From Desulforamulus ferrireducens (GTDB taxonomy: Bacteria; Bacillota; Desulfotomaculia; Desulfotomaculales; Desulfotomaculaceae), in the NCBI RefSeq assembly GCF_002005145.1, contig NZ_CP019698.1, positions 930,001-994,000 of the forward strand: a stretch of 64,000 nucleotides of DNA, given 5' to 3'. Positions 5,631-21,306 of this stretch are shown here, one piece after another (within the stretch, counting starts at the first letter, position 1; each line of letters starts with the position of its first letter). The notes beneath the pieces were generated by a model. It was not told the origin of the DNA, ran no database searches, and saw only the letters and a program-made list of their open reading frames with translations. The position numbers and the translations under genes were made by a program.

Positions 5631-7919
5631 TTAATTACCTATTGTTCCCAGAGCTTTATTGAGGGCGGTTACGCCTGTGACAGGCAAGGAAATCTTGCCG
5701 GCCTTACGTCCCTGTTCGTCATAACCGATGGCAAAAATTTCAGTCGCCAGGATAGTTGTCCGGGGGATGGGGAAGGTCCAGACTTCCTCGCCGCCGGCAG
5801 CAGCTTGCCGGGTGGCCTGGCCGAGGAGGGTATAATCCTTTTCGGTTATCCCCGTCCCGGTGGGTACGGCCCAGATTTCCACCCGGGCCAGTTTTTTTCC
5901 CTTGATTACCAGGTCGGGTGGAGCGATAGTGAAGGAGTCGATACTCGCCGGGGTGGGGGATTGTACCGGCATGACCGAGTTTACCCGCATGATGGCCCCC
6001 CGCATGTAAATATTAGACTCGTTGGTGAGGGTGCCGATAACCATCACCACCTGACCGGCGTATTTTTCCAGGTCTTTAGCCACGCCCGTGGAGCCTTCCT
6101 CCGGTAAAAGCACCAGGCGGCCAGTGCCGGTTTCCAGTTCAAAGTGACGACCTTCAACGTTGCTGACCACCAGCTTACCGGTGGCCTTAATTTTTTTATC
6201 CAGGTGATAGATGCTTATCCAGGCCGGGTAGTAATTGCCGTAGTAGCCGGCTGTGCCGCCTAAGTTTCGTACCAGCTCTACCGCCGGTCCGCCGTCCAGG
6301 GGCTGCCGGTACAGAGAGCCGCCTTGAGATGGGTCCAGGCGCAGGAAATAAAGGTCCTGCCCGTCCGGGGAGATGGAGGGGTAGTAGTCGGCGTTATCGG
6401 GTGTACTGGCTGTCAGGGGCCGGGCCTGGCCGTCGCCCGTTGCCAGCCAGATGCGGTGATCGCTTACCAGCACCCCGGATAGTTGTTTGCCTTCCCAGGC
6501 TGTCGTTTCCAGGCCACGGCAGAAGAGGACACCATCGTCCGGGGCGGGCAGCCATAGGGGCTGGCTATCCACCCGGCCGGGCTGGTCGTAAAAATCGATG
6601 TTGCCCTCCGGCAGGGTGACAATACACAAGCGCTTGTTGGCCGTCGCTTCCCGGCCGCTGCCCTGGATAAAAGCGAGTTTGTTGCCGTCCGGGGACCAGG
6701 CCAGCCACTGGCGGTAGGGCAGGCAGGTACCCAGGTTAAGAGAGCGGCCGGGATTATCTAAGTCTAGTACCTGGAGGGGCACCCCGTCAGTGGAGAGGGA
6801 AGCCGCGTTGTAGTGCAGGTAGTAGGCCAGGTAGCGGCCGTTGGGGGACCACTTTAACCCTATGGCATAGCTGAAATAGATCTCATCCACCGCTGTCCCG
6901 GCCTCACCCAGGGTAAGCAAATTATGGCGCTCGCCCGCTAAGGTCAGGCGGTCGATACGCAGGGGCTTATTTTCAGTGCGCGGCAGGGATATGGCCAGGC
7001 TCTTGCCGTCCGGCGCCCAGGCAAAGTCTTCTACCGTTTCGCTTCCGTCCGGTAGCAGAGTCGTAATCCGGGCACTGGCGTCGTCTTGGATGGCGGCCAG
7101 CTTCAAGTTCATGTCCGGGGCATAGCCTCCGCCGGGACCCTGGGTTGTATAAGCCAGGATATTGGCGACCGGTGACCAGGCCGCTTCAACCAGCACCGGA
7201 CGCGGGTCAACCTGGAAGGCGTCGCTCCCGTCGGCCCTGACCACCCAGAGGTAGGGCTTGGCGGCCCCCTCTTCCTGTTTTTCCCGTAACATGAAGGCCA
7301 GCCACCTGCCGTCGTAGGACCAGCCCAGGATGGTTGCCACGGTGTCTTCTTTAGTTACCTGCACCGGTGCGGCCCCGGCATGGCTACCTTCCAGAAGATA
7401 AAGGATACCGCCACTGGTGAAGGCCACCCTGGCCGGGAAAGGCGCGGAGTACACCCGCTCCGCCAGTGCGGGTGACGGGGTAGTAATGGCTACCGTCAGA
7501 GTTATAGCATTCCAGGATACTTCGGCGCCCAGGGATTCCGCCAGGAAGCGTACCGGAGCCAAGACACGGCCGTTGCGTATCTGCACAGGTACGGCTAGGG
7601 ATAACCGTTCCTTATTCCTGTATACGTCTCTGCTGTCGGCGACCATCTTAAGGGTCATTCGCGGCCCTGTGATTATTACCTCACTGGTCCCTTCGTTCCA
7701 GGTTACCGTGGCCTGGAGGGCTTCGGCCAGGGCGCGGACAGGAGCCAGGACATGGCCGTCCTGGATTATAGGCGGCTCATCCAGGGCCAGTTCCCGGCCG
7801 TCCACAGAAATATGGATGCCTTCGGCGCCGGCAGGGGCGGCACCGGTAAAGAGCCCGGCCAGCAAACCAAAGAAAACGGCCAGGGCCAGGAATTTAAAGG
7901 GTTTTAAAGGCTGGAGCAC
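5631..7919 (-). CDS. Secreted protein: copper-amine-oxidase-type stalk domain plus TolB-like beta-propeller
   Basis: 762 residues from GTG 7919, which sits 8 bases after AGGGAGG; TTG 7925 is too close to it. A signal peptide ends near PAGAEG. Residues about 35-150 contain two copies of the pattern GRVLAPVRFLAESLGAEVSWN, the Cu_amine_oxidN1 stalk domain common in Firmicutes cell-surface proteins. The region after it has repeated WSPDG/YDGRWLAF blades (WAPDGKSLA, WSPNGRYLAYY, WSPDGNKLAF), a TolB/PD40 propeller. The C-terminal 200 residues are beta-rich and unassigned. Despite the domain name, no copper site is implied. Base composition is clearly more GC-rich than the surrounding prophage and van genes, which suggests transfer. 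Confidence 0.75.
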   Translation of the reverse strand: MLQPLKPFKFLALAVFFGLLAGLFTGAAPAGAEGIHISVDGRELALDEPPIIQDGHVLAPVRALAEALQATVTWNEGTSEVIITGPRMTLKMVADSRDVYRNKERLSLAVPVQIRNGRVLAPVRFLAESLGAEVSWNAITLTVAITTPSPALAERVYSAPFPARVAFTSGGILYLLEGSHAGAAPVQVTKEDTVATILGWSYDGRWLAFMLREKQEEGAAKPYLWVVRADGSDAFQVDPRPVLVEAAWSPVANILAYTTQGPGGGYAPDMNLKLAAIQDDASARITTLLPDGSETVEDFAWAPDGKSLAISLPRTENKPLRIDRLTLAGERHNLLTLGEAGTAVDEIYFSYAIGLKWSPNGRYLAYYLHYNAASLSTDGVPLQVLDLDNPGRSLNLGTCLPYRQWLAWSPDGNKLAFIQGSGREATANKRLCIVTLPEGNIDFYDQPGRVDSQPLWLPAPDDGVLFCRGLETTAWEGKQLSGVLVSDHRIWLATGDGQARPLTASTPDNADYYPSISPDGQDLYFLRLDPSQGGSLYRQPLDGGPAVELVRNLGGTAGYYGNYYPAWISIYHLDKKIKATGKLVVSNVEGRHFELETGTGRLVLLPEEGSTGVAKDLEKYAGQVVMVIGTLTNESNIYMRGAIMRVNSVMPVQSPTPASIDSFTIAPPDLVIKGKKLARVEIWAVPTGTGITEKDYTLLGQATRQAAAGGEEVWTFPIPRTTILATEIFAIGYDEQGRKAGKISLPVTGVTALNKALGTIGN

Positions 7920-7981
7920 GGACAATACCTCCCTAATGTTTTCTCTATATTATTGACGACAGGGGGAGGTATTTGTTCCGG

Positions 7982-9181
7982 TTAAACGGTGATTATATAC
8001 ACGGTAGCGGCGATGGCGATAAGGGCTGCTTCAGGTAACACCAGCATCCGCAGAACCTGCCGCAGGTCGGCGCGGAAGAAATCGACCGTCAGGGACAGGC
8101 AGAGGTGCATGGGCGTAAACATGGCCCCCGTAAAACCGGCTATAAAAACAAATACCGCCAGGGGCATACTTATCTGACCACCGGTAGCAGCCATCACTAC
8201 GGGAAAAATAATGCCCATGGAATAAGAAACTGTACCCGTAATTAAGCCCACCAGCAGGGCGAATATGCCTAAAACGACGAATTCCGGCACGGCCAGGGTC
8301 TGCAAAAAATAGGAAAGGCTGGCTACGGCCCCGGTTGTCAAAATCGTTTGTTTAAAGAAAAAAATGCCCAGTACGAGGAGGAGGATTTTTACCTGGACGG
8401 TTTCCCGGCAGAGGGATAAAAGATGACGCGGGGTATAGCGATGGCGCACCAGAAGCACAGCCAGGACCAGCCCTACGGCTATAAGAATCCGCACCTGGAG
8501 GAAGAGGACTATCAATACCACAACCAGGACAGGAAGGATGTTAAGGAACACCTCTTTGATGAGGGGGAAAGAGCCGTTGCTGGGGCGTTTTTTTTCGGGC
8601 GGGATACGGCGTAGATAAGGCCATCCCAGTAAGGCTACCAGCAGGCCGTAGGGAACCAGGGCCTGAATTAATTTTGTCAGGGGCAGTTCGCAGACCTGGG
8701 AGGTGATTAGGAGGCTGGGGTAAAGGGGCAGGCAGTACTCCCAGATATGACGGTAATAATAATTGATAACGCTTTTTTCCTCGGGGGAGAGGGTTGTATC
8801 CGCCGTCGCCTGGGCGACCAGGGGCGCAGAAAATAATGCTCCGCCCATGGAAGGCATCAGGCCGATAAAGGCGGGCAGCGTGGCCGCCAGGAGGCGGCGA
8901 CTGGGAAGAAGATTAAGTAAACCGTCCAGCATCCTTGCCAGATAGCCTTCCTTTTTCAGCAAACCTTCGAAAAGCATAATCAGGACCAGGACGAGTTCTA
9001 GCTCGATGGTGGACGGGTCTGTAATGGTCTGCCAGAAGGCAGTCACAAAGGCGGTCAATGGAAGACGGTAGAGGATGGCCAGGAGGCATGAGCTGCCGAA
9101 AATAACCGGTGCCAGCGGGGCACGTCGCCAGAGAAGCACCATCATCAGGGCAAAGACGAGGATAAGTTTTAAGGCCGGCAT
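7982..9181 (-). CDS. DUF401 family membrane protein (putative permease)
   Basis: 399 residues from ATG 9181, preceded by GGAAGGTG; an ORF extension upstream lacks a ribosome site. It is very hydrophobic, with about ten predicted membrane segments starting at LKLILVFALMMVLLW. FIGLMPSMGGALFSAPLV and GFTGAMFTPMHLCLSLTVDF are the two re-entrant-type motifs that mark the DUF401 family, related to GntP/ion-transporter folds. The substrate is unknown. It lies 60 bases upstream of, and in the same direction as, the TolB-like gene and shares its GC-rich composition, so the two probably arrived together. Confidence 0.75.
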   Translation of the reverse strand: MPALKLILVFALMMVLLWRRAPLAPVIFGSSCLLAILYRLPLTAFVTAFWQTITDPSTIELELVLVLIMLFEGLLKKEGYLARMLDGLLNLLPSRRLLAATLPAFIGLMPSMGGALFSAPLVAQATADTTLSPEEKSVINYYYRHIWEYCLPLYPSLLITSQVCELPLTKLIQALVPYGLLVALLGWPYLRRIPPEKKRPSNGSFPLIKEVFLNILPVLVVVLIVLFLQVRILIAVGLVLAVLLVRHRYTPRHLLSLCRETVQVKILLLVLGIFFFKQTILTTGAVASLSYFLQTLAVPEFVVLGIFALLVGLITGTVSYSMGIIFPVVMAATGGQISMPLAVFVFIAGFTGAMFTPMHLCLSLTVDFFRADLRQVLRMLVLPEAALIAIAATVYIITV

Positions 9182-9434: not shown

Positions 9435-11130
9435 CCTGAATCCGTGATAATAACAACCGACCTAAGTTTAATTGACAGTAAATGGTATTACTGATTAAAG
9501 CTAACACCTGTTGGTATATGAAATAGGGTCTAAATATGATTATGTGAATAAAGGCTATTTACTCTTACCTTGGGTCCCCTAGATAAGGGAATAACAAAGC
9601 AGACCTCCCGTCCTAAGAGACTTGGAGCCTGTTTATACAGCTAACTGGAGCTAGAAGTTCTTTTATTTAAGCCAACGCTTTATATAGGTAACGGAAAGCT
9701 GGATACCAGGGGCTATGCCGGCCAAACCGTAACTTGACCTGCCGGGCATGGTGAACCAGCCGGGACGCTATGGTAATCAGGTTCTGAATAACCGTACGCA
9801 GCCGCCGACGTTGAGCTTTCTTATTGCGCAGCGGTACTTCCTTTAGCGGGAGGCTGAACTGCCCCAGAAGCCGCAAGATATTGTAGGCGAAAATACCAAG
9901 GTGCAGCACCAGGTTATTGGTGGCAAATTTGCCACTGGGCAACCGTTCCAGGTCTAAATCGTTTTTGATTTCGCTATGGAATTGCTCGCTGGTGCCGTGG
10001 TCGTGGTAGAGGGCAATGACCTCCTCCACCGGGTCGGGTAAAGTGGTCCAGTAGGTTTCAACCTCAATTTCCGGGACCAAGAGAAGCTGTCCGCTTCGTA
10101 ATATCGTGCGCTCGGTGACCTTATACACCAGACGGACAGGGGTGTCAGCGCCCTCGATTTTCACCATCTGGTGACCCCGATAGACGGTTTTTCCCTCCCG
10201 TTCTACGGTGGCGTTACCATTTTCCTTGGCAACGGCCAGCCATGCTTCCGGCGTTTCCTTACGCAGATTTCGCTTAATGATAAAATCGGCTTTGATTTCC
10301 GGGTCCAAACAGACCTGGAGATTATCTTGGCTGTCATTACCGCCATCCATCCGTACTAAAAGTGGCAGCGAAGTGATAGCGCGAGCAAAGGTTAGAGCGC
10401 GACGCAGGAAGTCCGGCGTCCCTTTTTGGCAATGCTGTTTCCCGGCCCGCAGTTCGGTATTGACGCAGTAGCCTTCCTTACCGAGGTAGGCGAAGATAGG
10501 CGCATAACCGTCGTAGCCCTTATAGGTCCTGGAAACACCCTCTTTCTTGGAATTTGAATTATCAAAGGGAGTAACATCAATATCCAAAGGGACATATTGG
10601 CGCTTCTGTTCCCCGGAACCCAAGGTAACAGGAGTTACCGGTGCCTTAAGTTTCTTAAGGAACCTGGCCGTTTCCTCGAGGATGATCTCCTGGTAGGGTA
10701 CGCTATGAGCTATCATATCCAGGCGCTGGCGCAGGGTAGGACTTGAAGGCACATCCTGAATATCCAGCGCTGCAGCGAAGAAGGGGTCATCCCGAAAAAG
10801 CTCAATATGGTCAAAATCACTGCGACCCTGGCAAAGCAGGCCGATGTATGAGGTGATAACATCCCCATGGGAAATATCCGGCGAGGAAACACCAGGTATC
10901 CGGGTCTTATTTAGCCTGAATTTCAGAGCAGTATGATCAATGATTTCCCCTACCAGAGCCAGTCCGGCAACGGGGGTAAGGTGTTCATCAGACTGTTCAA
11001 TAATGAATTTCATGGCTGCACCTCGCAGGTGAAGATGGTTTTGTTTGCCATCTAGCCTATTATACCTTATTTTTCGCGAGGTTTTGAGCCATATCCAACT
11101 ATTTTGTTATTGGGTTGTCACGGATTCAGG
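9435..11130. mobile_element. IS1380-family insertion sequence, copy 2
   Basis: 1,696 bp with the same ends and orientation as copy 1. Left flank TCTTA and right flank TAATA do not form a target duplication, and neither does any pairing with the flanks of copy 1. With copy 1 it brackets a 4.1-kb GC-rich segment. Confidence 0.9.
9667..11013 (-). CDS. IS1380-family transposase (copy 2)
   Basis: 448 residues, the same protein as copy 1 except glycine in RMDGGND. Start, ribosome site and DDE-type regions are as in copy 1. Full length and without frameshift, hence probably active. Confidence 0.9.
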   Translation of the reverse strand: MKFIIEQSDEHLTPVAGLALVGEIIDHTALKFRLNKTRIPGVSSPDISHGDVITSYIGLLCQGRSDFDHIELFRDDPFFAAALDIQDVPSSPTLRQRLDMIAHSVPYQEIILEETARFLKKLKAPVTPVTLGSGEQKRQYVPLDIDVTPFDNSNSKKEGVSRTYKGYDGYAPIFAYLGKEGYCVNTELRAGKQHCQKGTPDFLRRALTFARAITSLPLLVRMDGGNDSQDNLQVCLDPEIKADFIIKRNLRKETPEAWLAVAKENGNATVEREGKTVYRGHQMVKIEGADTPVRLVYKVTERTILRSGQLLLVPEIEVETYWTTLPDPVEEVIALYHDHGTSEQFHSEIKNDLDLERLPSGKFATNNLVLHLGIFAYNILRLLGQFSLPLKEVPLRNKKAQRRRLRTVIQNLITIASRLVHHARQVKLRFGRHSPWYPAFRYLYKALA

Positions 11131-11326: not shown

Positions 11327-11415
11327 GTAAGCGCTTAATCTTCGGGTGCCTCGCCAGCATTAAAAAACTATGAGACAATACCTCCATGTACTAAAGTAAA
11401 AGGAGGTATTTTTCT

Positions 11416-11730
11416 TTGACCAATTCGGATAAAAGGGCACTGGTTGAAGAATGCCGCAAAAGTGCCATGACTGCCAAGGAGTGGTGCGCATCTAAAGGTA
11501 TCAACTATAGCACTTACATGCAATGGGCATCGAGAATAAATAAAGAAGATCGAAATGCAACCTCTAAGCCAATGCAGTGGGCTGATATAACTTCAGTTGC
11601 TAATAAAATCCCAAAAAAAGAAACAGCAGAAGTCAAGCTTATCTGCGGCAAATGGACCATCTCTGTTGAACCCGGATTTAGTCCAGACTTGCTAGCTAAA
11701 GTACTCAAAGTGGTTGATACAGTATGTTAA
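11416..11730 (+). CDS. tnpA: IS66 accessory protein TnpA
   Basis: 104 residues from TTG 11416, with AAAAGGAGG upstream. The N-terminal helix-turn-helix region (ECRKSAMTAKEWCASKGIN and TYMQWASRIN) is the IS66 TnpA pattern, close to the IS3 OrfA type of DNA-binding domain. It is needed with TnpB and TnpC for transposition in studied IS66 members. Its stop overlaps the tnpB start by 7 bases, consistent with translational coupling. Confidence 0.85.
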   Translation: MTNSDKRALVEECRKSAMTAKEWCASKGINYSTYMQWASRINKEDRNATSKPMQWADITSVANKIPKKETAEVKLICGKWTISVEPGFSPDLLAKVLKVVDTVC

Positions 11731-12086
11731 AGGACATTTCCAGTTATGATGGCATCTATTTAGCCTGTGGAGTTACCGACCTGCGCCACTCTGTAGATGG
11801 CTTGGCAATAATCGTTAAGCAACAATTTAGGATGGACGTCTTTGGCAACTATCTTTTCCTTTTTTGTAACCGTAGGCGTAACCGACTCAAAGGTCTCAGC
11901 TGGGATAAGAATGGATTTGTACTCTACTACAAGAGATTAGATGGGGATGGTGCCCGCTTTAAATGGCCTAACGACCCACAAGATGTTAGAAACATAAGCC
12001 TTGAGCAGCTAAAGCTACTCATGAATGGCCTTTCCATCGATCCTCCCAAAGGGTTTGGTGAAGTAAAGTCAAGAGATTTTTATTAA
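11724..12086 (+). CDS. tnpB: IS66 Orf2-like protein TnpB
   Basis: 120 residues. YLACGVTDLRHSVDGLA, LFLFCNRRRNRLKGL and FVLYYKRLDGDGARFKWP are the diagnostic IS66 TnpB (Orf2) blocks. Biochemical role is not settled in the family; it is required for transposition. About 100 AT-rich bases separate it from tnpC. Confidence 0.9.
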   Translation: MLKDISSYDGIYLACGVTDLRHSVDGLAIIVKQQFRMDVFGNYLFLFCNRRRNRLKGLSWDKNGFVLYYKRLDGDGARFKWPNDPQDVRNISLEQLKLLMNGLSIDPPKGFGEVKSRDFY

Positions 12087-12185
12087 TATTAAATAATACT
12101 GAGTAAGATAAAGATAAATTAAAATATTGCCAGAATTACCAAGTAAACACTGGTATTTCTGGTGTTTTTGTAGTAAAATATTAGT

Positions 12186-13775
12186 ATGAATAAGATTAAT
12201 TTAGCGGGGTTACCCCCAGAAATAATTGCATATATTACTAAGCTTGAGTCTCAAGTTCAAGAACAGTCAACTAAGATTGAAAATCAGAAAGTCCGCATTG
12301 ATAATCTGATGACTATGTTGGCTAATTTTCAAAAGACTTTGTATGGCCAATCCAGTGAGAAAAGCAGGTATGTCCTTGGTACAGATAGCAACCAGCTGGC
12401 ACTGTTCAATGAAGCGGAAGTTGAGGCTAACCGTAATGCTTTAGAACCTCAAAAGGTAACGGTTAGCGGACATACTCGGAAAGCAAAGCGGACCAAGGAA
12501 GAACTGGCAGCAGAGCTTCCTGTGGTAGAGATTCTCTGCGAACTTAACGAGGAAGAACAAATTTGTGAGGAATGTGGCGGTAAACTCCGTAAGCTTGGTA
12601 GAGAGATAGTCCGGGAAGAACTGGAAATTATTCCTGCCCAAGTAAGGGTACTTCGCTATATAAGGCAAAACTATGTTTGTGAGGATTGTGAAAAGGATAC
12701 CGGATTTGCCACGATCGTAAAGGCACCTACTCCGAAACCAGTGATAAAAAGGAGTCTTGCTTCTGCCTCAACGGTAGCCCACGTCATATACCAAAAATAT
12801 GTCAATGGCATGCCTTTAAACAGGCAGGAGAAAGATTGGGCCTGTCAGGGGGTGACGCTCTCGCGAGCCACCTTAGCCAACTGGGTAATACGAGCTGCAA
12901 CTGACTGGCTAAGGCCTCTGTGGGAGACTATGAAAGCCTATCTCTTAAAGCAAGCTGTTATCTCAGCAGATGAGACTGTAATTCAGGTGCTTAAAGAGGA
13001 AGGGAAATCCCCCACATCAGAGTCCCGGATGTGGGTGTATTGTTCGGGTAATACAGGCAATCCCCCTGTGGTACTCTATGAATACCAGCCTACCCGGTCA
13101 GGAGAGCATGCAAGACGTTTCCTGGAAGGGTTTCGTGGTATGCTTCAGACGGATGGCTACGCTGGGTACAACAAGGTAGCATATGTTACCCGCTGTGGTT
13201 GCTGGGCCCATTTACGCCGCAAGTATGAAGAGGCCATGCCTAAGAAAGGAGCCATTGAAGGCTCAGCCGCCGCTATTGGCTTTCAATACTGCAATCGCTT
13301 ATTTGACATTGAAGCAGAGTTGGAAAACCTCACGGCGGATGAGCGTAAAAAGCAGCGTCAGGAACAATCCCGTCCAGTTCTTGAGGCTTATTGGGCGTGG
13401 GTTGAAACTGTTAAGCCGCTGGGAGGTTCAAAACTTGGCGAGGCCATTACTTACTCTATTAACCAAAAAGAAGCTTTGTGTGAGTTCTTAAACGATGGAC
13501 GAATCGAAATCTCGAACAATCGCGCGGAGCAGAAAATTAAACCCTTTGTTACAGGAAGAAAGGCTTGGTTATTTGCCGACACTAAAAAAGGCGCTCAATC
13601 CAGTGCCATCGCTTACAGCATTGTGGAATCAGCTAAGGCTAATAAAATAAACCCCTATATGTATCTTGTGCATATATTCCAGACAATGCCTGGCCTTGAC
13701 TTTAAGAATGACTCAACAGTACTAGAAAGATTAATGCCCTGGTCTCCTGAACTTCCTGATTACTGCCGTCTGTAA
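12186..13775 (+). CDS. tnpC: IS66 transposase TnpC
   Basis: 529 residues, full length for the family. A coiled-coil/leucine-rich N-terminus is followed by a zinc-finger-like block (CEECGGKL and CEDCEKD). The DDE domain has ISADETVIQVL, QTDGYAGYN and ISNNRAEQKIKPF carrying the three acidic residues. It ends with the IS66 C-terminal segment (MPWSPELPDYCRL). A hairpin terminator follows inside the right end. Confidence 0.92.
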   Translation: MNKINLAGLPPEIIAYITKLESQVQEQSTKIENQKVRIDNLMTMLANFQKTLYGQSSEKSRYVLGTDSNQLALFNEAEVEANRNALEPQKVTVSGHTRKAKRTKEELAAELPVVEILCELNEEEQICEECGGKLRKLGREIVREELEIIPAQVRVLRYIRQNYVCEDCEKDTGFATIVKAPTPKPVIKRSLASASTVAHVIYQKYVNGMPLNRQEKDWACQGVTLSRATLANWVIRAATDWLRPLWETMKAYLLKQAVISADETVIQVLKEEGKSPTSESRMWVYCSGNTGNPPVVLYEYQPTRSGEHARRFLEGFRGMLQTDGYAGYNKVAYVTRCGCWAHLRRKYEEAMPKKGAIEGSAAAIGFQYCNRLFDIEAELENLTADERKKQRQEQSRPVLEAYWAWVETVKPLGGSKLGEAITYSINQKEALCEFLNDGRIEISNNRAEQKIKPFVTGRKAWLFADTKKGAQSSAIAYSIVESAKANKINPYMYLVHIFQTMPGLDFKNDSTVLERLMPWSPELPDYCRL

Positions 13776-13804
13776 GTCCAATTAAATATTTAGTAATTAA
13801 ACTT

Positions 13805-13840
13805 CTCGGTTACGACTAGCTTGTAGCCGAGTTTTATTTT
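13805..13840 (+). terminator. Terminator inside the IS66 right end
   Basis: CTCGGTTAC and GTAGCCGAG form a hairpin, then TTTTATTTT. It stops tnp transcription before the downstream van module. Confidence 0.7.
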
Positions 13841-13894
13841 GCCACAATTGGTGGGTATTTACCATGCACCTGAAGATTAAGCGCTTACTTTTTA

Positions 13895-13923
13895 TTGACT
13901 GGAATTGGTAAAAGACATATAAT
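13895..13923 (+). promoter_or_regulatory. Sigma-A promoter of the DUF1413-van module
   Basis: TTGACT, 17 bases, TATAAT: near consensus. It starts 7 bases outside the IS66 right end, so it belongs to the module rather than being a hybrid with the IS. Confidence 0.8.
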
Positions 13924-13970
13924 CTTATTAACAATGTTGTTGATATTGATATTGATAAGGAGATGAAAAC

Positions 13971-14213
13971 ATGAGTGATGTTAATGAGCTACTAGAAGAA
14001 GCTATTAAGGAAACTGAAAACTTGAATGAAGGTGAAGTCTTTCTTGTTAAGGACCTGTTCAAGGGTTATGTATGGAATAGAATACCCAGAAAGTATCGAC
14101 TTCTGCTTGGGACTTTATTTTTAAACTACGTAAATAAAATGGAAGGTAATATAAAGGCAATTGAAAAGACCTCATCTAACCAGCAGAGGTATAAAAAGAC
14201 AATTGGCAAGTAG
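13971..14213 (+). CDS. DUF1413 domain-containing small protein
   Basis: 80 residues, ATG preceded by AAGGAGATG. The core GEVFLVKDLFKGYVWNRIPR and RLLLGTLFLNYV matches the DUF1413 family, small proteins of unknown function found in Firmicutes and on plasmids. It is the first gene after a strong promoter, 18 bases before vanR, and probably in the same transcript. It is not the VanU regulator of vanG operons, which has a different helix-turn-helix sequence. No role in glycopeptide sensing can be claimed. Confidence 0.7.
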   Translation: MSDVNELLEEAIKETENLNEGEVFLVKDLFKGYVWNRIPRKYRLLLGTLFLNYVNKMEGNIKAIEKTSSNQQRYKKTIGK

Positions 14214-14231
14214 GAAGAAGGGATAAAATTT

Positions 14232-14930
14232 ATGAGTATCAATATTTTAGTTGTTGACGATGAACAAGCTATAGCAGATCTAATTGAAGTTTATCTAAAA
14301 AATGAAGGTTTTACAGTATACAAATTTTATAACGGTCAAGATGCGTTCCGATGTGTTGAGTCGAAGCAGTTGGACCTTGCGATACTTGATGTTATGCTGC
14401 CAGATATTGATGGCTTTACTATCTGTCGGAAGATTAGGGAAAAACATAATTTTCCCATTATTATGCTGACAGCTAAAGAAGAAGAAATCGATAAGATTAC
14501 CGGGCTGACATTAGGCGCCGATGACTATATCACTAAACCATTCCGTCCTTTGGAATTAGTTGCTCGTGTAAAGGCGCAGCTCCGAAGATTTACCAAATAT
14601 AATTCTCCAGAGCAAAAACAGGAAGAACGCTTGATTGCCTTTTCCGGCTTGGTGTTAGACATGGATGCTCGTGAATGTACGCTGAATGAGAAAAAGTTAT
14701 CGCTTACACCTACGGAGTTTTCTATTCTTTGGGTTCTTTGTTCCAATCGAGGACGAGTGGTAAGTTCTGAAGAATTGTTCCGCGAGGTATGGGGAGACAA
14801 GTATTTTAGTAACAGCAATAATACGGTAATGGTTCATATTCGACATTTAAGAGAAAAAATGGGTGATAGCGCGGAAAATCCTAAATATATCAAAACGGTA
14901 TGGGGGGTTGGTTATAAAATTGAAAAGTGA
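14232..14930 (+). CDS. vanR: VanR-type response regulator
   Basis: 232 residues, OmpR/PhoB class. Receiver domain with acidic pocket VDDE (D9, D10), phosphorylated D53 in LAILDVMLPD, and switch lysine in ITKPFRPLELVARVKAQLRR. The winged-helix output domain ends HIRHLREKMGD to KTVWGVGYKIEK. Several blocks, such as LTLGADDYITKPFRPLEL and the last fifty residues, closely resemble VanR from enterococcal vanA/vanD-type clusters as I recall them. It would bind DNA as a dimer when phosphorylated by VanS. The gene runs into vanS with a 23-base overlap, the same arrangement as in vanA. Confidence 0.88.
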   Translation: MSINILVVDDEQAIADLIEVYLKNEGFTVYKFYNGQDAFRCVESKQLDLAILDVMLPDIDGFTICRKIREKHNFPIIMLTAKEEEIDKITGLTLGADDYITKPFRPLELVARVKAQLRRFTKYNSPEQKQEERLIAFSGLVLDMDARECTLNEKKLSLTPTEFSILWVLCSNRGRVVSSEELFREVWGDKYFSNSNNTVMVHIRHLREKMGDSAENPKYIKTVWGVGYKIEK

Positions 14931-16053
14931 CAGAGATAAGAGAAACAATGATTATACAAAATTAAAAAGAAAAGTATTTTTTAGAGTGCTCCTTATTGTT
15001 TTTGCCACGATCGCAACTGTTATTTTTTTGCGTGATGTAATTCAAGACAATTTCAATATTGGAGAGAGTATTGTAGAATTTTTAAAGAATAAGTTTTATT
15101 TGAGTGAAAGCGATGCTGTAATAATTTATCGGTATATTTTTCTTTATAATAAAGAGCTTATTACACTTATTGTGATCATCATCTTATTAATTATTTTGCT
15201 TAGATTTTCAATTTCGTGGTTTACTAAATATTTTGATGAAATAGGTAGTGGAATGGATAAACTTGTTGAGGAATCCAATGATGAAATTACATTATCACCG
15301 GAATTGGATTTTATGGAAAATAAGCTTAATCAAATAAAAAACAACTTGGAAAAGCAAAAAAAAGCTGCACTTGATGCCGAACAGCGCAAAAATGATTTGG
15401 TCGTTTATTTGGCTCATGATATAAAGACACCTCTGACCTCCGTTATAGGATACTTAAATCTACTGGATGAGGCTCCTGATATGCCTCCTGAACAGAAATC
15501 AAAATATGTCGGTATTACTTTGGAAAAAGCTTATCGATTAGAAGAGCTTATCAATGAGTTTTTCGAGATCACAAGATTCAATCTTCAAACTATTGTTTTG
15601 AATAAAGAAAAAATCAATTTACTGTTCATGCTCCAGCAAATGGCAGATGAATTCTATCCAATGCTGGCTCCACAGGGAAAGCAGATATCTGTCAATGTGC
15701 CTGACGGACTCACTCTGTGGGGAGATGCAGACAAACTAGCCCGTGTATTCAATAATATTCTGAAAAATGCCATAGCCTATAGCGATGAAAATAGTGTCAT
15801 TGATATTTCTGCATGGCAGCAGGACGAAAATATTGTTATAGCTTTTATGAACCAGGGAAATCCAATTCCACAGACAAAGATTGATACTATTTTTGAAAAA
15901 TTTTACCGATTAGATGCTGCACGCTCCTCAAACACCGGTGGAGCAGGGCTAGGTTTGGCAATCGCAAAAGAAATTGTCACAGCTCACGATGGAACGATTT
16001 CTGTAGAAAGCAACCCGGAAAATACTACATTTACAGTAAAGCTTCCGTCTTAA
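14908..16053 (+). CDS. vanS: VanS-type sensor histidine kinase
   Basis: 381 residues from TTG 14908 (LVIKLKSD), the start position used by the enterococcal homologue; an ATG 45 bases upstream lies deep in vanR. There are two membrane segments (VFFRVLLIVFATIATVIFL and LITLIVIIILLIILL) with a short external loop, then the dimerisation/phosphorylation helix with LAHDIKTPLTSVIGYL, where the histidine is the phosphate acceptor. The ATPase domain has N box (IFNNILKNAIAYS) and G boxes (GGAGLGLAIAKEI). The short sensor loop is like VanS of vanA rather than the larger vanB type. The expected signal is a glycopeptide or the damage it causes; this is inferred from homology. Confidence 0.88.
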   Translation: MVIKLKSDRDKRNNDYTKLKRKVFFRVLLIVFATIATVIFLRDVIQDNFNIGESIVEFLKNKFYLSESDAVIIYRYIFLYNKELITLIVIIILLIILLRFSISWFTKYFDEIGSGMDKLVEESNDEITLSPELDFMENKLNQIKNNLEKQKKAALDAEQRKNDLVVYLAHDIKTPLTSVIGYLNLLDEAPDMPPEQKSKYVGITLEKAYRLEELINEFFEITRFNLQTIVLNKEKINLLFMLQQMADEFYPMLAPQGKQISVNVPDGLTLWGDADKLARVFNNILKNAIAYSDENSVIDISAWQQDENIVIAFMNQGNPIPQTKIDTIFEKFYRLDAARSSNTGGAGLGLAIAKEIVTAHDGTISVESNPENTTFTVKLPS

Positions 16054-16080
16054 GAAAATCTTAAGAAGTTCATAAGATTG
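16048..16080 (+). promoter_or_regulatory. Three tandem 11-bp direct repeats, likely VanR operator before vanY
   Basis: TCTTAAGAAAA, TCTTAAGAAGT and TCATAAGATTG follow each other without gap, overlapping the last codons of vanS. Head-to-tail 11-bp repeats one helical turn apart are the binding pattern of OmpR/PhoB-class regulators. A TTAAAT box lies downstream near 16109 without a good -35, as expected for an activated promoter. Binding by this VanR is inference. Confidence 0.6.
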
Positions 16081-16144
16081 AATTCCAACATAACCTCTTG
16101 TTCTGTGGTTAAATAATTTCACGCAGAATAAGGAGGTATTTATT

Positions 16145-17122
16145 ATGGTACGAAAAATAAAAAAGAAAAAGTCAGGAATACGCGAATTTGTAATATTTTT
16201 ATTGATAGTTGTTGTTTTTGCTTTTGTTTTCAAATTCATTATTACTCCGGGAAACCAACATGAGTTTGAGAAAGAATATGTCGATAAAACAACGCCTATT
16301 CCCTCGTCAGATATAGAACCCGATTCCTCTGTTTCTATATCTCTCGATAAACTAAACAGTACTAATGCGATCCTAATTCGTTTAGAAGATCAAACTATTC
16401 TGATGCAAAAAAGTAGCGAAGAAAAGATCTATCCTGCTTCGTTAACTAAAATGATGACAGCTATTGTTGCAATAGAAAATTTAACAAATTTGCAGAAAGA
16501 AATACAACTAACCCATTATACCTTTAATGGTCTTTATAGTTCCAATGCTTCTATGGCTGGTTTCCAGCCAGGTGAGAAGGTTAGGGCTATTGATCTTTTA
16601 TACGGTGTGATGCTTCGAAGTGGTGCAGAAGCTTGTATTGGTCTTGCGGATCATATTGCTGGTTCGGAGCAAAATTTTGTAACGATGATGAATCAAAAGG
16701 CGGCAGATCTAGGGATGTACAACACTCATTTTGAAAATACCACCGGACTTCACAATGAAAACCACTACACAACAGTGAAAGATCTGGCTGTTCTTCTAAG
16801 CTATGCTTTGCAAAATGATACTTTCAGGGAAATTTTTACTTCATCTCGTCATTCCACACAACCCACGAATAAGCACCCTGGAGGGATAACCTTTAACAAT
16901 ACCATGTTTGAAAAACTCAACAATCAAAACATTATTGATGGAGAAATTTTAGGAGGGAAAACTGGATATACCGATGAAGCTGGACTGTGTCTTGCGAGTC
17001 TTGCCAAAGTGGATCACAAAGAATATATATTGATTACAGCTGGTGCAAAAGGAGATATCTATTCTGAACAGTATAATATTACCGATGCATTAGTTGTATA
17101 CAATAGAATCGGGAAACAATGA
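16145..17122 (+). CDS. vanY: VanY-type D-alanyl-D-alanine carboxypeptidase (peptidase S11)
   Basis: 325 residues, ATG preceded by AAGGAGG. One N-terminal membrane anchor (FVIFLLIVVVFAFVFKFII), then a penicillin-binding S11 domain: catalytic S99 and K102 in ASLTK, KTG box in GGKTGYTDEAG. The middle motif reads RSGAEA instead of the usual SxN, as in VanY of the vanD type. It would remove the terminal D-Ala from peptidoglycan precursors outside the membrane, lowering glycopeptide targets. Its own candidate operator precedes it. The two-component neighbours support the van assignment; without them it would be called DacA/PBP5-like. Confidence 0.8.
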   Translation: MVRKIKKKKSGIREFVIFLLIVVVFAFVFKFIITPGNQHEFEKEYVDKTTPIPSSDIEPDSSVSISLDKLNSTNAILIRLEDQTILMQKSSEEKIYPASLTKMMTAIVAIENLTNLQKEIQLTHYTFNGLYSSNASMAGFQPGEKVRAIDLLYGVMLRSGAEACIGLADHIAGSEQNFVTMMNQKAADLGMYNTHFENTTGLHNENHYTTVKDLAVLLSYALQNDTFREIFTSSRHSTQPTNKHPGGITFNNTMFEKLNNQNIIDGEILGGKTGYTDEAGLCLASLAKVDHKEYILITAGAKGDIYSEQYNITDALVVYNRIGKQ

Positions 17123-17216
17123 TATGTTCCCGGGTTGACCCCCTAATTTTAGAGTCACACACTCTTATTCAATGATTCCCTTAGACTTACATTTTTTTAT
17201 CTGCCAGAGGCACCAC

Positions 17217-17727: not shown

Positions 17728-18120
17728 ATGAATACTAGAGAAATTGCTGCGGAATACCGCCTGGCACACTGGGCACAGATCGTGCGCAGAAAAAATGAAA
17801 GCGGCCTTAGTATTAAAGCCTTCTGTGCAAACGAGGGATTCCGTGAAAACACCTACTACTATTGGCAAAGGAAGCTGCGAGAAGCTGCCTGTGAACAACT
17901 AACAGAAATTCGAACTGAGCACGCAAAGCTGCCTTGCCTAGTCCCACCAGGATTTGCCGAATTGAAAATTACAGACGCACCTGAAAAGTTTCCTGTCCAC
18001 AACGATGCCAAACAGAGTGAAATCCGCATTGAACTTGGAGGAATGCGGATTGCTGCGGACAGCGCCTATCCGGTAGAAAAGATAGCCGCACTGCTTGGCC
18101 TGTTTAAACAGCTATGCTAA
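17728..18120 (+). CDS. tnpA: IS66 accessory protein TnpA (second IS66)
   Basis: 130 residues. EYRLAHWAQIVRRKNESGLS and YYYWQRKLREA are the helix-turn-helix region of IS66/IS3-type TnpA; the C-terminal half (IRIELGGMRIAADSAYP and IAALLGLFKQLC) is the conserved TnpA tail. It overlaps tnpB by 7 bases. Confidence 0.82.
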   Translation: MNTREIAAEYRLAHWAQIVRRKNESGLSIKAFCANEGFRENTYYYWQRKLREAACEQLTEIRTEHAKLPCLVPPGFAELKITDAPEKFPVHNDAKQSEIRIELGGMRIAADSAYPVEKIAALLGLFKQLC

Positions 18121-18467
18121 GCCTGGCCGGAAAACGGGTATTTCTCGCCTGCGGTCACACAGATATGCGGAAAAGCATCAACGGGCTTGCGGCCATTGTG
18201 GAAGGGAGTTTCAAACTTGACCCATGTGACGGGGCACTGTTCGTATTCTGCAACAGAAGCCGCGACCGCATAAAAATATTGGAATGGGATGGCGACGGGT
18301 TCTGGCTTCACTTCAAACGTCTGGAAAAAGGACATTTTCGGTGGCCAACGTCCGGTGAAGAACAGACCCTTGTGCTAACAGGTGAGGAATTGTCAATCCT
18401 ATTAGGTGGGACAAGGGTGGCATTAAAGCTAAGGCGAAAAGAATTGCTGGGAAAACGAATTACATAA
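18114..18467 (+). CDS. tnpB: IS66 Orf2-like protein TnpB (second IS66)
   Basis: 117 residues with ACGHTDMRKSINGLAAIV, LFVFCNRSRDRIKILEWDG and FWLHFKRLEKGHFRWP, the standard IS66 TnpB signature. Complete. Confidence 0.9.
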   Translation: MLSLAGKRVFLACGHTDMRKSINGLAAIVEGSFKLDPCDGALFVFCNRSRDRIKILEWDGDGFWLHFKRLEKGHFRWPTSGEEQTLVLTGEELSILLGGTRVALKLRRKELLGKRIT

Positions 18468-18522
18468 AAAATATGCAAAAAAATAACTTGCTTTTCAAAG
18501 TTTTCCATGAGAATATGGAGAT

Positions 18523-20070
18523 ATGGAAACTGCAAACAACTGGACCGAAATAATAGCTGAAAAGGATGCCCGTATAGCCGAACTGGAGATGCTCGTAAAG
18601 TTTTACGAGGAACAGTTTCGGCTTTCTAAACATCGCCAATTTGGGCCATCAAGCGAAAAGGGTACTTTGCCTGGTCAGCTTGGTCTGTTTGACGAGGTTG
18701 AAAAAGAAGCTGATTTACAAAAAAACGAGCCGGAGCTCGAAGAAATTACCTATGCCCGCCGCAAACGCATTGGCAAAAGAAAAGATGACCTGTCAGTATT
18801 GCCGGTGGAGACGGTGGAACATACACTTCCCGAAGAAGAACGAGTTTGTCCTGAATGCGGTGGGATGCTGCATGAAATGGGACATGATACCCGGCGCGAG
18901 CTTGTAATTATTCCTCCTCAGGTCAAGGTTGTGGAGCATAGACGTGCCGTACTATCCTGCCGGAACTGCGAAAAAAATGGCGACCATGTGCCTATAGTAA
19001 AGGCGGAAATGCCCAAGCCGCTAATCAGCGGCAGCCTTGCTTCGCCATCTGCAGTGGCCCACATCATAACACAAAAATATGTTCAGCATATCCCACTGTA
19101 CCGGCAAGAGCAAGACTGGAAAAGGCAGGGGGTGCGGCTTTCCCGCCAGACTATGGCCAACTGGGTCATCCGCTGCAGTGAGGATTGGCTGTTGCCCATT
19201 TATGAGCGAATGAAGGCCATATTGCTGACACAGGATGTGCTTCATGCTGATGAGAGTACAGTGCAGGTTTTACGGGAACCTGGGAAGACTGCCGTTTCAA
19301 ACAGCTATATGTGGTTGTACAGGACAAGTGGGGATACAAAACGGCAGATTGTTCTCTTTGAGTATCAACCCAGCCGGTCAAGCACCCACCCGCGGCAGTT
19401 TTTAAAGGGTTTTAGGGGCTTTCTGCACACAGATGGCTATGCTGCCTATCACACATTACCCGGGGTCACAGTTGTGGGATGTTGGGTTCATATGCGACGT
19501 AAATTTGAGGATGCCCTTAAGGCTATTCCAAATTGCGAAAGGGCTGTATCATCAGCAAACGATGCTGTTAGGCGCATTGGCTTACTTTTCCACCTGGAAG
19601 AACAGTGGGAAAGTTTAACCCCTGAAGAACGCTACAAACTGAGATTAGAGAAATCTAAGCCTCTGGCAGAGGCTTTTTTTGGCTGGCTGCAAACGTTGAC
19701 CGTCCTTCCCAAAACCGCTATGGGAAAGGCGGTGCACTATGCATTGGAACAGCGCGAATGGCTAATGAATGTCTACCTTGACGGGCGTACTGAACTCTCG
19801 AACAACCGCGCGGAAAATGCCGTGCGTCCCTTTGCCTTGGGCCGCAAAAATTGGTTGTTCTGCAATGCTGTCAAAGGGGCTATATCAAGCTCGGTGGTTT
19901 ATTCCATCATAGAAACCGCCAAAGCAAACGGGCTGCTGCCCTTTGAATATATGAAATTCCTACTTGAAACTGTTCCATCTACATCAATTGGGGAATTGGA
20001 TGCCCTATTACCTTGGGGCGAAGCTATCCCCGAAAAATGCCGTATGCCATTTACAAAGGAGAATGCCTAA
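18523..20070 (+). CDS. tnpC: IS66 transposase TnpC (second IS66)
   Basis: 515 residues, complete. N-terminal helical region, zinc-finger-like block (CPECGGML, CRNCEKNG), and DDE domain with LHADESTVQVL, HTDGYAAYH and LSNNRAENAVRPF. It ends with the IS66 C-terminal segment LLPWGEAIPEKCRM. The stop overlaps the start of the next ORF by 8 bases. Confidence 0.92.
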   Translation: METANNWTEIIAEKDARIAELEMLVKFYEEQFRLSKHRQFGPSSEKGTLPGQLGLFDEVEKEADLQKNEPELEEITYARRKRIGKRKDDLSVLPVETVEHTLPEEERVCPECGGMLHEMGHDTRRELVIIPPQVKVVEHRRAVLSCRNCEKNGDHVPIVKAEMPKPLISGSLASPSAVAHIITQKYVQHIPLYRQEQDWKRQGVRLSRQTMANWVIRCSEDWLLPIYERMKAILLTQDVLHADESTVQVLREPGKTAVSNSYMWLYRTSGDTKRQIVLFEYQPSRSSTHPRQFLKGFRGFLHTDGYAAYHTLPGVTVVGCWVHMRRKFEDALKAIPNCERAVSSANDAVRRIGLLFHLEEQWESLTPEERYKLRLEKSKPLAEAFFGWLQTLTVLPKTAMGKAVHYALEQREWLMNVYLDGRTELSNNRAENAVRPFALGRKNWLFCNAVKGAISSSVVYSIIETAKANGLLPFEYMKFLLETVPSTSIGELDALLPWGEAIPEKCRMPFTKENA

Positions 20071-20485
20071 GATGTCCAGAGGCACCGCAACTAAATTTAT
20101 GATGACTTTTGTCCAGGAATATCTGGATGGAAAGCGTAGTCGCTTAGACTTTGATTTAGATTTCAACCATTACCTGATAAAGCACTATGCAAAAATGGAA
20201 CGAGAAAATCCGGATCTTGCGGAGTGCTTTAATTATTACCTGGCTGAGGAAGGATTTGACCAAGCAGTGGGCCTGTCGGACGACCGGCACAGAAGGTTAA
20301 TTCAAAAACAATTTAACGAATTTAAAGCGGCCCTGCGTGATGGATTTTTTGAGGGGGAACCAGTTATCCATATCCCCCTCATCCATTCCTGGGCGCTTTT
20401 TATATATGTTAGCATACCCGTAGTGCTGGCAACAGGTGACGTAGGATTTGACGCTTACAGATCCACGAGAGGAAACCGTTACTAG
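20063..20485 (+). CDS. Extra small ORF of the second IS66, unknown function
   Basis: ATG 20063 overlaps the tnpC stop and reads MPKMSRGTATKF, followed by an acidic, helical 90-residue segment with DFDLDFNHYLIKHYAKME and FNYYLAEEGFDQAV. The first 95 residues look like a real globular protein that goes with some Firmicutes IS66 elements. The remaining 45 residues (from GEPVIH on) run through the IS right end and into the first CRISPR repeat, so the natural C-terminus may have been altered by insertion. Function unknown. Confidence 0.55.
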   Translation: MPKMSRGTATKFMMTFVQEYLDGKRSRLDFDLDFNHYLIKHYAKMERENPDLAECFNYYLAEEGFDQAVGLSDDRHRRLIQKQFNEFKAALRDGFFEGEPVIHIPLIHSWALFIYVSIPVVLATGDVGFDAYRSTRGNRY

Positions 20486-21306
20486 ACTACCTATGAGGGA
20501 TTGAAACATTGCTGGCAGTAATTCTTTAGGAACCGTCACGGCGTTACTAGACTACCTATGAGGGATTGAAACCCCCAATCCATACTGTTACCTCCCCGTT
20601 TAATAATTGTTACTAGACTACCTATGAGGGATTGAAACACTATTTTTCTTAATAATGTTCTTAATCCCTTTTTAGGTTACTAGACTACCTATGAGGGATT
20701 GAAACTCAACCTACCATTTACAGCATGGTTACTGTATGTATTAGTTACTAGACTACCTATGAGGGATTGAAACCAGTGCTTACTCATAGCAGAGTAGGCA
20801 CAATAAAGGGTTACTAGACTACCTATGAGGGATTGAAACGCAAAAACGAAAACAATGCCATCGTATCATGGAAGCCGTTACTAGACTACCTATGAGGGAT
20901 TGAAACATAAGGTAAAGTTGGGACTTTTTACAGTCCCATTTTATGTTACTAGACTACCTATGAGGGATTGAAACTCCGGTATATCATCCAGGTTCATGGA
21001 GGTTTGCTGGTTACTAGACTACCTATGAGGGATTGAAACGGATTTATTGCAGGACTTAAAAAGGCCATAAGAATTTGTTACTAGACTACCTATGAGGGAT
21101 TGAAACTTTTTCCTTCCCCCTCGTAATCCTTTGGAGTATGGGTTACTAGACTACCTATAAGGAATTGAAACGAAGATGCCACACTGGATATCAGGTGTCA
21201 CGGTTTGACTCGTTACTAGACTACCTAGATTGAAACGAAAAAGCCGCTTAACTAATGCCTATATCAAATCAATAGCGTAATTAGCCTACCTATAGGGGTT
21301 TGAAAC
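20478..21306 (+). CRISPR. CRISPR array, 13 repeats and 12 spacers, no cas genes nearby
   Basis: The 30-bp repeat starts GTTACTAGAC and ends GGGATTGAAAC. Repeats start at 20478, 20543, 20609, 20676, 20744, 20810, 20877, 20945, 21010, 21077, 21142, 21212 and 21277; spacers are 35-40 bp. The first ten repeats are identical; number 11 has two changes, number 12 has lost 5 bases, and number 13 has about seven changes. The ending ATTGAAAC is the 5' handle seen in type I-A/I-B and III crRNAs, so transcription is rightward and the decayed end is the old, leader-distal end. The leader should lie to the left, but IS66 ends only 19 bases before repeat 1. Confidence 0.95.

Follow-up and report, generated by a model that had tools for sequence, protein, structure and literature searches.

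A stand-alone VanR/VanS module with an S11-family gene in Desulforamulus ferrireducens, and a putative VanR promoter nested in a conserved hairpin

What does a VanR/VanS two-component pair control when no resistance ligase gene lies beside it? The question is raised by a stretch of 64,000 nucleotides from the spore-forming sulfate reducer Desulforamulus ferrireducens (contig NZ_CP019698.1, positions 930,001 to 994,000; hereafter the window), in which ORFs (open reading frames) and Pfam matches give the plus-strand order IS66 element, promoter, DUF1413 gene, vanR, vanS, a regulatory gap and a gene for a protein of the S11 DD-carboxypeptidase family. The answer that we lean towards, with modest confidence, is that a stand-alone VanR/VanS regulon, gained by horizontal transfer, serves a single target, and that a hairpin keeps the S11 enzyme off unless VanR fires. 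A stand-alone mobile VanRS–carboxypeptidase module is known in kind. The new part is a VanR promoter nested in a conserved hairpin, whose function we infer. The DUF1413 gene, the VanR operator, the hairpin promoter and the loss of a second operator all go beyond an earlier description of the locus (the original prediction). Coordinates are collected in Table 1.

The regulator and the kinase are a pair of the VanA type, as judged by protein comparison. VanR shares 157 of 231 residues (68%) with the vanA protein of pVEF3 (L098, Tn1546 type; L numbers denote loci), and VanS shares 211 of 372 (57%), with 63% identity in the kinase part and 36% in the sensor part. Identity to VanRB and VanSB is 37% and 24%. 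Both proteins exceed curated NCBIfam cut-offs (423 versus 350 bits for VanR and 407.5 versus 400 bits for VanS), and the subtype models stay below theirs (vanR-A, 382 versus 500 bits; vanR-D, 346 versus 500 bits). If VanS is read from the TTG at 14908, the two genes overlap by 23 bp (14908–14930), the same length as in L098 (2995–3017). The next-closest kinases in the host genome are 31–33% identical to VanS. A quick VanS tree of 85 rows, with SH-aLRT support only and with L072 (a near-copy of L059) and L067 (a split gene) left out, puts the window and VanSA on one side and the host-genome kinases with VanSB on the other, with long branches noted. The resemblance to enterococcal VanR/VanS and the shared gene overlap that had been claimed are borne out by these values. 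A grouping of the pair with general PhoP/PhoR-like systems was not found; the scores and the tree put it with the Van regulators.

A D-Ala-D-Lac-type resistance operon, that is, vanH, a ligase and vanX next to vanRS, is not present in the window, where none of the three genes appears beside vanRS among the ORFs or Pfam matches. The host genome is a single contig of 3.24 Mb (99.98% complete). PF07478 (Ddl) has eight matches there above the 24-bit cut-off, one of them strong (207 bits); the seven weaker ones (31–50 bits; frames of 452 or about 1,080–1,100 amino acids) are read as other ATP-grasp enzymes. PF01427, the VanX family, has no match in the host genome. The claimed absence of vanH, ligase and vanX thus stands genome-wide as regards a second strong ligase match and the VanX family, and for vanH it stands for the window, no genome-wide vanH search having been made. 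The host genome also contains five S11 genes (the one in the window matches the family least well), one M15 VanY-family gene (C1:3201011) and one VanZ gene (C1:3017353).

The likely target of the pair is indicated by a putative VanR operator in the gap between vanS and the S11 gene. The exact operator occurs once in the host genome, 5' of the S11 gene; 16 further matches differ from it at two positions, one of them being this very site read on the opposite strand, against 22 in a backwards control. With a single exact operator, standing before the S11 gene, the circuit appears to control the S11 enzyme alone, which agrees with the earlier claim of a circuit controlling only a carboxypeptidase: the S11 gene is its sole evident target. 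Related loci carry the same kind of site. In a scan of named genomes 123 VanS loci were confirmed, and the 80 that scored best were kept. Triple repeats of the form [AT]TAAG-N6-[AT]TAAG-N6-[AT]TAAG with at most one mismatch are found 232 times in 951 kb of DNA (the 80 loci, 14 kb of the window and the vanA locus, with overlapping registers counted) versus 2 times in the reversed DNA. They lie mostly about 100 bp 5' of vanR, about 97 bp 5' of the S11 gene, and again 3' of the S11 gene before varied genes, among them those for VanW, VanZ, VanH, ligase, ABC transporters and FemAB (L032); the gene labels of operators and promoters are those of the nearest downstream ORF, assigned by an automatic rule. 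No such triple repeat stands before the effector genes of the vanA locus (L098) or of Paenibacillus vanHAX loci, so the operators of these genes are spelt otherwise.

Between the operator and the S11 gene lies a hairpin that encloses the putative promoter, with the putative −10 element TTAAAT (16109–16114) in its loop and the Shine-Dalgarno site (16130–16136) in its 3' arm. The S11 promoters share this plan: 3' of the operator, an 18-bp stem closes a loop of about 14–17 bases, and the 3' arm contains the Shine-Dalgarno site. A TATAAT-like hexamer (at least five of six letters) lies in the loop or at most three bases away in 49 of 60 sequences, a raw count not set against shuffled ones. Each promoter was compared with 100 dinucleotide shuffles, and identical stretches were counted once. 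Of the 56 distinct S11 promoters, 54 had a hairpin significant at p ≤ 0.05 (all except L061 and L082) and 49 had one at p ≤ 0.01. At p ≤ 0.05 the same was true of 1 of 44 vanR promoters, which are a fair control because they bear the same kind of operator. In an alignment of 60 sequences, 56 of them distinct, which took in L017, the first promoter of L032 and L071 as being of the same type, 93.1% of stem cells pair, versus 35–58% in slid pairings; 3 of 500 shuffled alignments reach this pairing percentage and 5 of 500 reach the covariation score. The commonest central pair of the S11 stem is G-U (24 of 56 sequences).

Hairpins at corresponding places extend beyond the S11 genes. At other VanR-driven genes the stem after the operator is spelt differently and its loop contains a −10-like TAAGAT, and the vanS–vanH gap of vanA contains a third hairpin (z 6.2) with TAGACT in its loop, which we read as a putative −10. 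A second vanA record was used here because IS1251 interrupts the vanS–vanH gap of the first. No hairpin stands out in the vanR promoters of vanA and vanB. These observations raise the possibility, on which we place a little less than even weight, that VanA-type VanR-driven effector promoters in general, including that of Tn1546 vanH, are enclosed in a hairpin whose fold is escaped by VanR-started RNA alone, and that such a fold-back insulator is conserved across Bacillota, vanRS–S11 being the carrier found most widely. Searches of the open-access literature found no published van promoter nested in a hairpin; the "vanR-leader" in the relevant part of PMC2965389 is unrelated and concerns a vanillate regulator.

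Several side observations concern VanR-driven genes other than the S11 gene. In L032 a FemAB-family gene, VanK-like in kind (7225–8361), has its own VanR operator and an S11-type hairpin and lies 5' of the S11 gene. In L015, L018, L024, L033, L049 and L062, genes for sugar-type ABC permeases (BPD_transp_1 in L033) or an HlyD-like protein (L024) are found 3' of the S11 gene, where a second VanR operator precedes them, with or without a short VanW or other ORF in between.

The layout of the window would allow the following scheme. DUF1413, vanR and vanS would be transcribed from a promoter that is close to consensus and has no VanR operator, hence without autoregulation. VanS, to judge from its family, would sense glycopeptide or lipid II stress and phosphorylate VanR, which would then bind the triple operator at 16050–16076 and start RNA at the −10 in the hairpin loop. 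Because the RNA started there would lack the 5' arm of the hairpin, its Shine-Dalgarno site would be free, and the membrane-anchored S11 enzyme would be made; by trimming the last D-Ala from pentapeptides the enzyme could remove the glycopeptide target. Read-through RNA would have both arms, and it would fold, hide the Shine-Dalgarno site and perhaps also terminate. The predicted folding for the window is −20.1 kcal/mol for the read-through RNA and −2.5 kcal/mol for RNA from the assumed start in the loop. Fold-back protection is familiar from Tn10/IS10 and phage T4 gene e, where RNA begun upstream hides the ribosome site and RNA from the inner promoter does not. The proposed case differs in that a regulator sensing an antibiotic would control the inner promoter.

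The S11 domain takes up residues 66–302 of the 325-residue protein, and there is little else besides an N-terminal hydrophobic stretch. In the window enzyme and the 58 relatives that score over 300 bits (an L023 fragment, L035, L084 and L088 fall outside), the SxxK motif is kept in 59 of 59 sequences (SLTK in 57, SMTK in 2) and KTG in 58, with one gap; SGA replaces SxN in all 59. The host's S11 paralogues, two of four of which could be read at the SxN site, have SAN and SGN. Among five aligned structures, SGA is found only in 1es3, which we take to be a mutant, and 1es5, of the same K15 enzyme, has SGC. On the evidence of these motifs, the window enzyme belongs to a separate S11 subfamily marked by SGA in place of SxN. 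The original prediction had called it a VanD-like carboxypeptidase: it is of the S11 family (PF00768, 171 bits), and it is not VanY-D by the model vanY_of_D (NF000471), whose cut-off is 625 bits and which gives it 91 bits; three other S11 models score it slightly higher (92–93 bits). As a separate observation, L035 (7228–8283) has an S11-type promoter and the first dozen S11 residues fused to a different S11 protein (32% identity), which looks like an exchange of the leader.

The stand-alone vanRS–S11 arrangement is common and already known in kind. At E ≤ 1e-80, VanS relatives are present in 7 of 60 genomes (host included; 3 of the 8 other members of the genus have one) and in 30 of 398 genomes sampled across the phylum (host included). 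In 54 of the 80 loci an S11 gene follows vanS within 1.5 kb; within the retrieved flanks a ligase gene was found at 17, and 6 have both the S11 gene and a ligase. Among the loci whose flanks reach the full 6 kb in either direction (54 loci), a ligase is present in 14, and 34 have a nearby S11 gene and no ligase. On the VanS tree the ligase loci are scattered, and explaining the ligase label takes 13 changes, of which starred branches force 2; ligase genes seem, by this reconstruction, to have been gained or lost beside the module more than once. The window's starred clade of eight rows has no ligase in the flanking DNA examined, some of its loci being short. VanS relatives (47% identical) were also seen in two phage-collection records, L096 (MT835472.1) and OR846615.1; no hairpin was found after vanS in a phage-collection scaffold with a VanS relative.

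The copy in the window seems to have moved recently, apparently from a distant relative. VanS relatives of its own genus are 75–81% identical, and DNA that is 97–99% identical is found in Bacillaceae, which points to recent transfer of this copy. L009 matches the window at 99.0% over 3204 bp, L081 (Amphibacillus sediminis) at 97.3% over 3236 bp, L011 at 96.7%, L012 (from a metagenome bin labelled Pseudobutyrivibrio) at 96.5% over 3053 bp, L010 (Caldibacillus) at 94.8% and L014 at 92.9%. Within the genus, L117 of genome G006 and L049 of D. aeronauticus DSM 10349 share 4128 bp without a difference. Upstream of the L011 copy lie a serine recombinase gene, a MerR-TipAS gene and a DUF2268 gene, and downstream a VanZ gene (Pfam assignments); L009 has ORFs of the same clusters. 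In these Bacillaceae copies (L011:3261–4917, and L009) the regulator with the TipAS antibiotic-recognition domain and the DUF2268 protease gene stand just 5' of the module. The original prediction had tied mobility to the flanking IS66 elements. That two kinds of IS66 flank the module is confirmed (their transposases are 46% identical), and mobility is supported by the Bacillaceae copies and not by this pair. The IS66 pair was rejected as a carrier or composite transposon, the two elements being unlike and the 8-bp sequences that border the left one not matching each other; ends and flanks were determined for the left element.

A number of these results weigh against the scheme set out above. 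The replacement of SxN by SGA leaves the activity of the S11 enzyme in question, and the sensor part of VanS is far from that of VanSA. Only 26 of 47 other VanR-driven or unassigned promoters have a hairpin that reaches p ≤ 0.05, and that of vanB, rejected as a second hairpin-promoter example, precedes the repeats and does not surround the −10. The alignment omitted three deviating S11 promoters (L061, L082 and L084, the first two without a hairpin), so its pairing figures flatter the stem; the promoter-wide shuffle tests include all. Covariation is weak: six pairs change on both sides, a number equalled when the pairing is slid by −3 and by −1, and the RNAalifold covariation term is small (−0.5). 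An ordinary-terminator scan with a loop limit of 8 does not list the S11 hairpin, which has the long stem of an intrinsic terminator but a 14-base loop and a broken T run. S11 genes next to vanS (median score 36, n = 38) and those at a distance from it (median 35, n = 18) have equally strong stems (p 0.44), and this weakens the idea of the hairpin as a plain vanRS terminator. The same equality, along with the weak covariation, favors a role as DNA, in which the hairpin would be a two-armed repressor operator or an aid to melting of the −10 and read-through RNA would be irrelevant. We regard this as rather improbable, since the stems at other VanR-driven genes and at vanA differ in their letters, which a single operator would not show, and the commonest central pair, G-U, pairs in RNA and breaks the symmetry of DNA.

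The signal itself might also be another one. If the module answered general cell-wall stress and adjusted crosslinking in the host, it would offer no glycopeptide defense, and the divergent sensor part of VanS would be in keeping with this. VanSA is described in a portion of PMC8541618 as responsive to varied wall-active agents, and the portion of PMC7062640 on cwaRS–ldcA, a two-component/carboxypeptidase system of Lactobacillus paracasei, reports altered wall and penicillin susceptibility but not vancomycin susceptibility, though vancomycin raises cwaR RNA. This explanation seems unlikely to us, if worth keeping in view: the same operator in relatives drives VanW, VanZ, VanH, ligase and FemAB, the usual glycopeptide resistance genes, and a MerR-TipAS gene and recombinases accompany the module in L009 and L011. 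That the locus is what is left of a vanRS-Y-HAX resistance operon after loss of its ligase genes is very improbable. The loci with both S11 and ligase (for example L025, with S11-vanH-ligase-vanX) and VanYD-type genes between vanRS and vanHAX, reported in a part of PMC9689679, would fit such a remnant. However, the window's own clade has no ligase in its examined flanks, and in L009 and L011, which share 97–99% of the DNA, a VanZ-family gene and not vanHAX follows the S11 gene. The earlier suggestion of a reduced form is not supported in the sense of a lost resistance operon, ligase loci being scattered over the tree. It survives only in that the window lacks the second VanR operator that close relatives have after the S11 gene (exact in L009 and L081, with one mismatch in L011, and followed by the VanZ gene in L009 and L011); by eye, a gap of about 30 bp at the S11 stop codon takes its place.

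The regulon of one target proposed here can be placed among known van systems. Tn1546 vanA is similar in its regulators, in the length of the vanR–vanS overlap and in the strong vanS–vanH hairpin, and it differs in having vanH-vanA-vanX instead of the S11 gene, in lacking (in L098) a window-type triple repeat, and in a hairpin without a Shine-Dalgarno site. The VanD operon has the order vanRD-vanSD-vanYD. It thus shares with the window an S11 carboxypeptidase after vanRS, whereas the window has no vanHDX and its S11 protein is far below the VanY-D cut-off. The actinobacterial VanY of the VanY/VanYn type is an M15 enzyme. The actinobacterial vanYRS systems, in the relevant part of PMC8698665, likewise have vanRS beside a carboxypeptidase without vanHAX, in another phylum and with an enzyme other than S11. 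The vanG operon, as covered in part of PMC4405338, shares a small first gene before vanR–vanS (vanURS), three direct repeats at the effector promoter and a VanR that does not act on the regulatory promoter; VanU, however, is an XRE repressor, and DUF1413 is another family.

According to the parts of PMC11273654 that bear on them, vanRS pairs without ligases are frequent in Bacilli and Clostridia and are tied to accessory genes. These pairs share the regulator class and the lack of ligase; the partners named there are vanY and vanZ, and those parts do not describe the S11 enzyme, the operator or the hairpin. The module described here shows a target of VanR/VanS without a resistance ligase, a serine carboxypeptidase behind a specific operator, and it is common to many Clostridia and Bacilli and moves between them. 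This fits the view, taken in the same parts of PMC11273654, that such bacteria were the source of the regulators in resistance operons. If the proposed function of the hairpin is true, it would explain how an enzyme that trims the wall, and may be costly, is kept silent in a mobile cassette able to land behind any promoter, and a hairpin promoter would explain the vanA hairpin at the same place.

Table 1. Features of the module and its flanks (positions within the window)
Feature	Position	Strand	Basis
Left IS66 element (flank, outside the module)	11327–13888	+	Terminal inverted repeats GTAAGCGCTTAAT read directly; IS66 transposase Pfam matches
Putative sigma-70 promoter of DUF1413-vanR-vanS, TTGACT-17-TATAAT	13895–13923	+	11 of 12 consensus letters
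DUF1413 protein, 80 aa (amino acids), first gene of putative operon	13971–14213	+	PF07205, 89 bits
VanR response regulator, VanA type	14232–14930	+	NF033117, 423 bits (cut-off 350)
VanS sensor kinase, VanA type, TTG start	14908–16053	+	NF033091, 407.5 bits (cut-off 400)
Putative VanR operator, three 11-bp repeats, TTAAG-N6-TTAAG-N6-ATAAG	16050–16076	+	Sole exact match in the genome; same at S11 genes of relatives
Hairpin around putative −10	16090–16139	+	z 3.6–3.9 versus shuffles (window copy); conserved stem; −20.1 kcal/mol
S11 DD-carboxypeptidase family protein, 325 aa	16145–17122	+	PF00768, 171 bits; SLTK / SGA / KTG; N-terminal hydrophobic anchor
Junction missing about 30 bp with second VanR operator (present in L081)	17115–17131		By eye versus L009, L011 and L081
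Right IS66 element genes (flank, other kind than left)	17728–20070	+	Pfam IS66 matches

The end of the left IS66 element sits 6 bp 5' of the −35 of the DUF1413-vanRS promoter, which is also present in L081; in the promoter scan it was the best of 11 matches, a number not above that in shuffles (mean 12.4). No VanR operator was found in the window before vanR or at this promoter. The presence of a strong promoter and DUF1413 instead of an operator suggests, from the layout, that the window's DUF1413-vanRS unit has lost VanR autoregulation. DUF1413 precedes vanR also in L009, L011, L014 and L081 (4 of 80 loci). It was rejected as a marker of Van loci, being present in 11 of 100 genomes (host included) and vanRS-adjacent only in the window and these four loci. 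Its single-sequence structure prediction is weak (pLDDT 68.7). In the leader of the DUF1413 gene (13921–13970) the Shine-Dalgarno site is covered by what may be a hairpin or palindrome (z 2.5), perhaps an operator of this first gene.

Further elements lie beyond both flanks. A DDE_Tnp_1_4 transposase gene (9667–11013, minus strand) adjoins the left side of the left IS66 element, and shortly 3' of the right IS66 element there is a CRISPR array (20478–21171) with 11 repeats of GTTACTAGACTACCTATGAGGGATTGAAAC, ten of them exact and the last with two mismatches.

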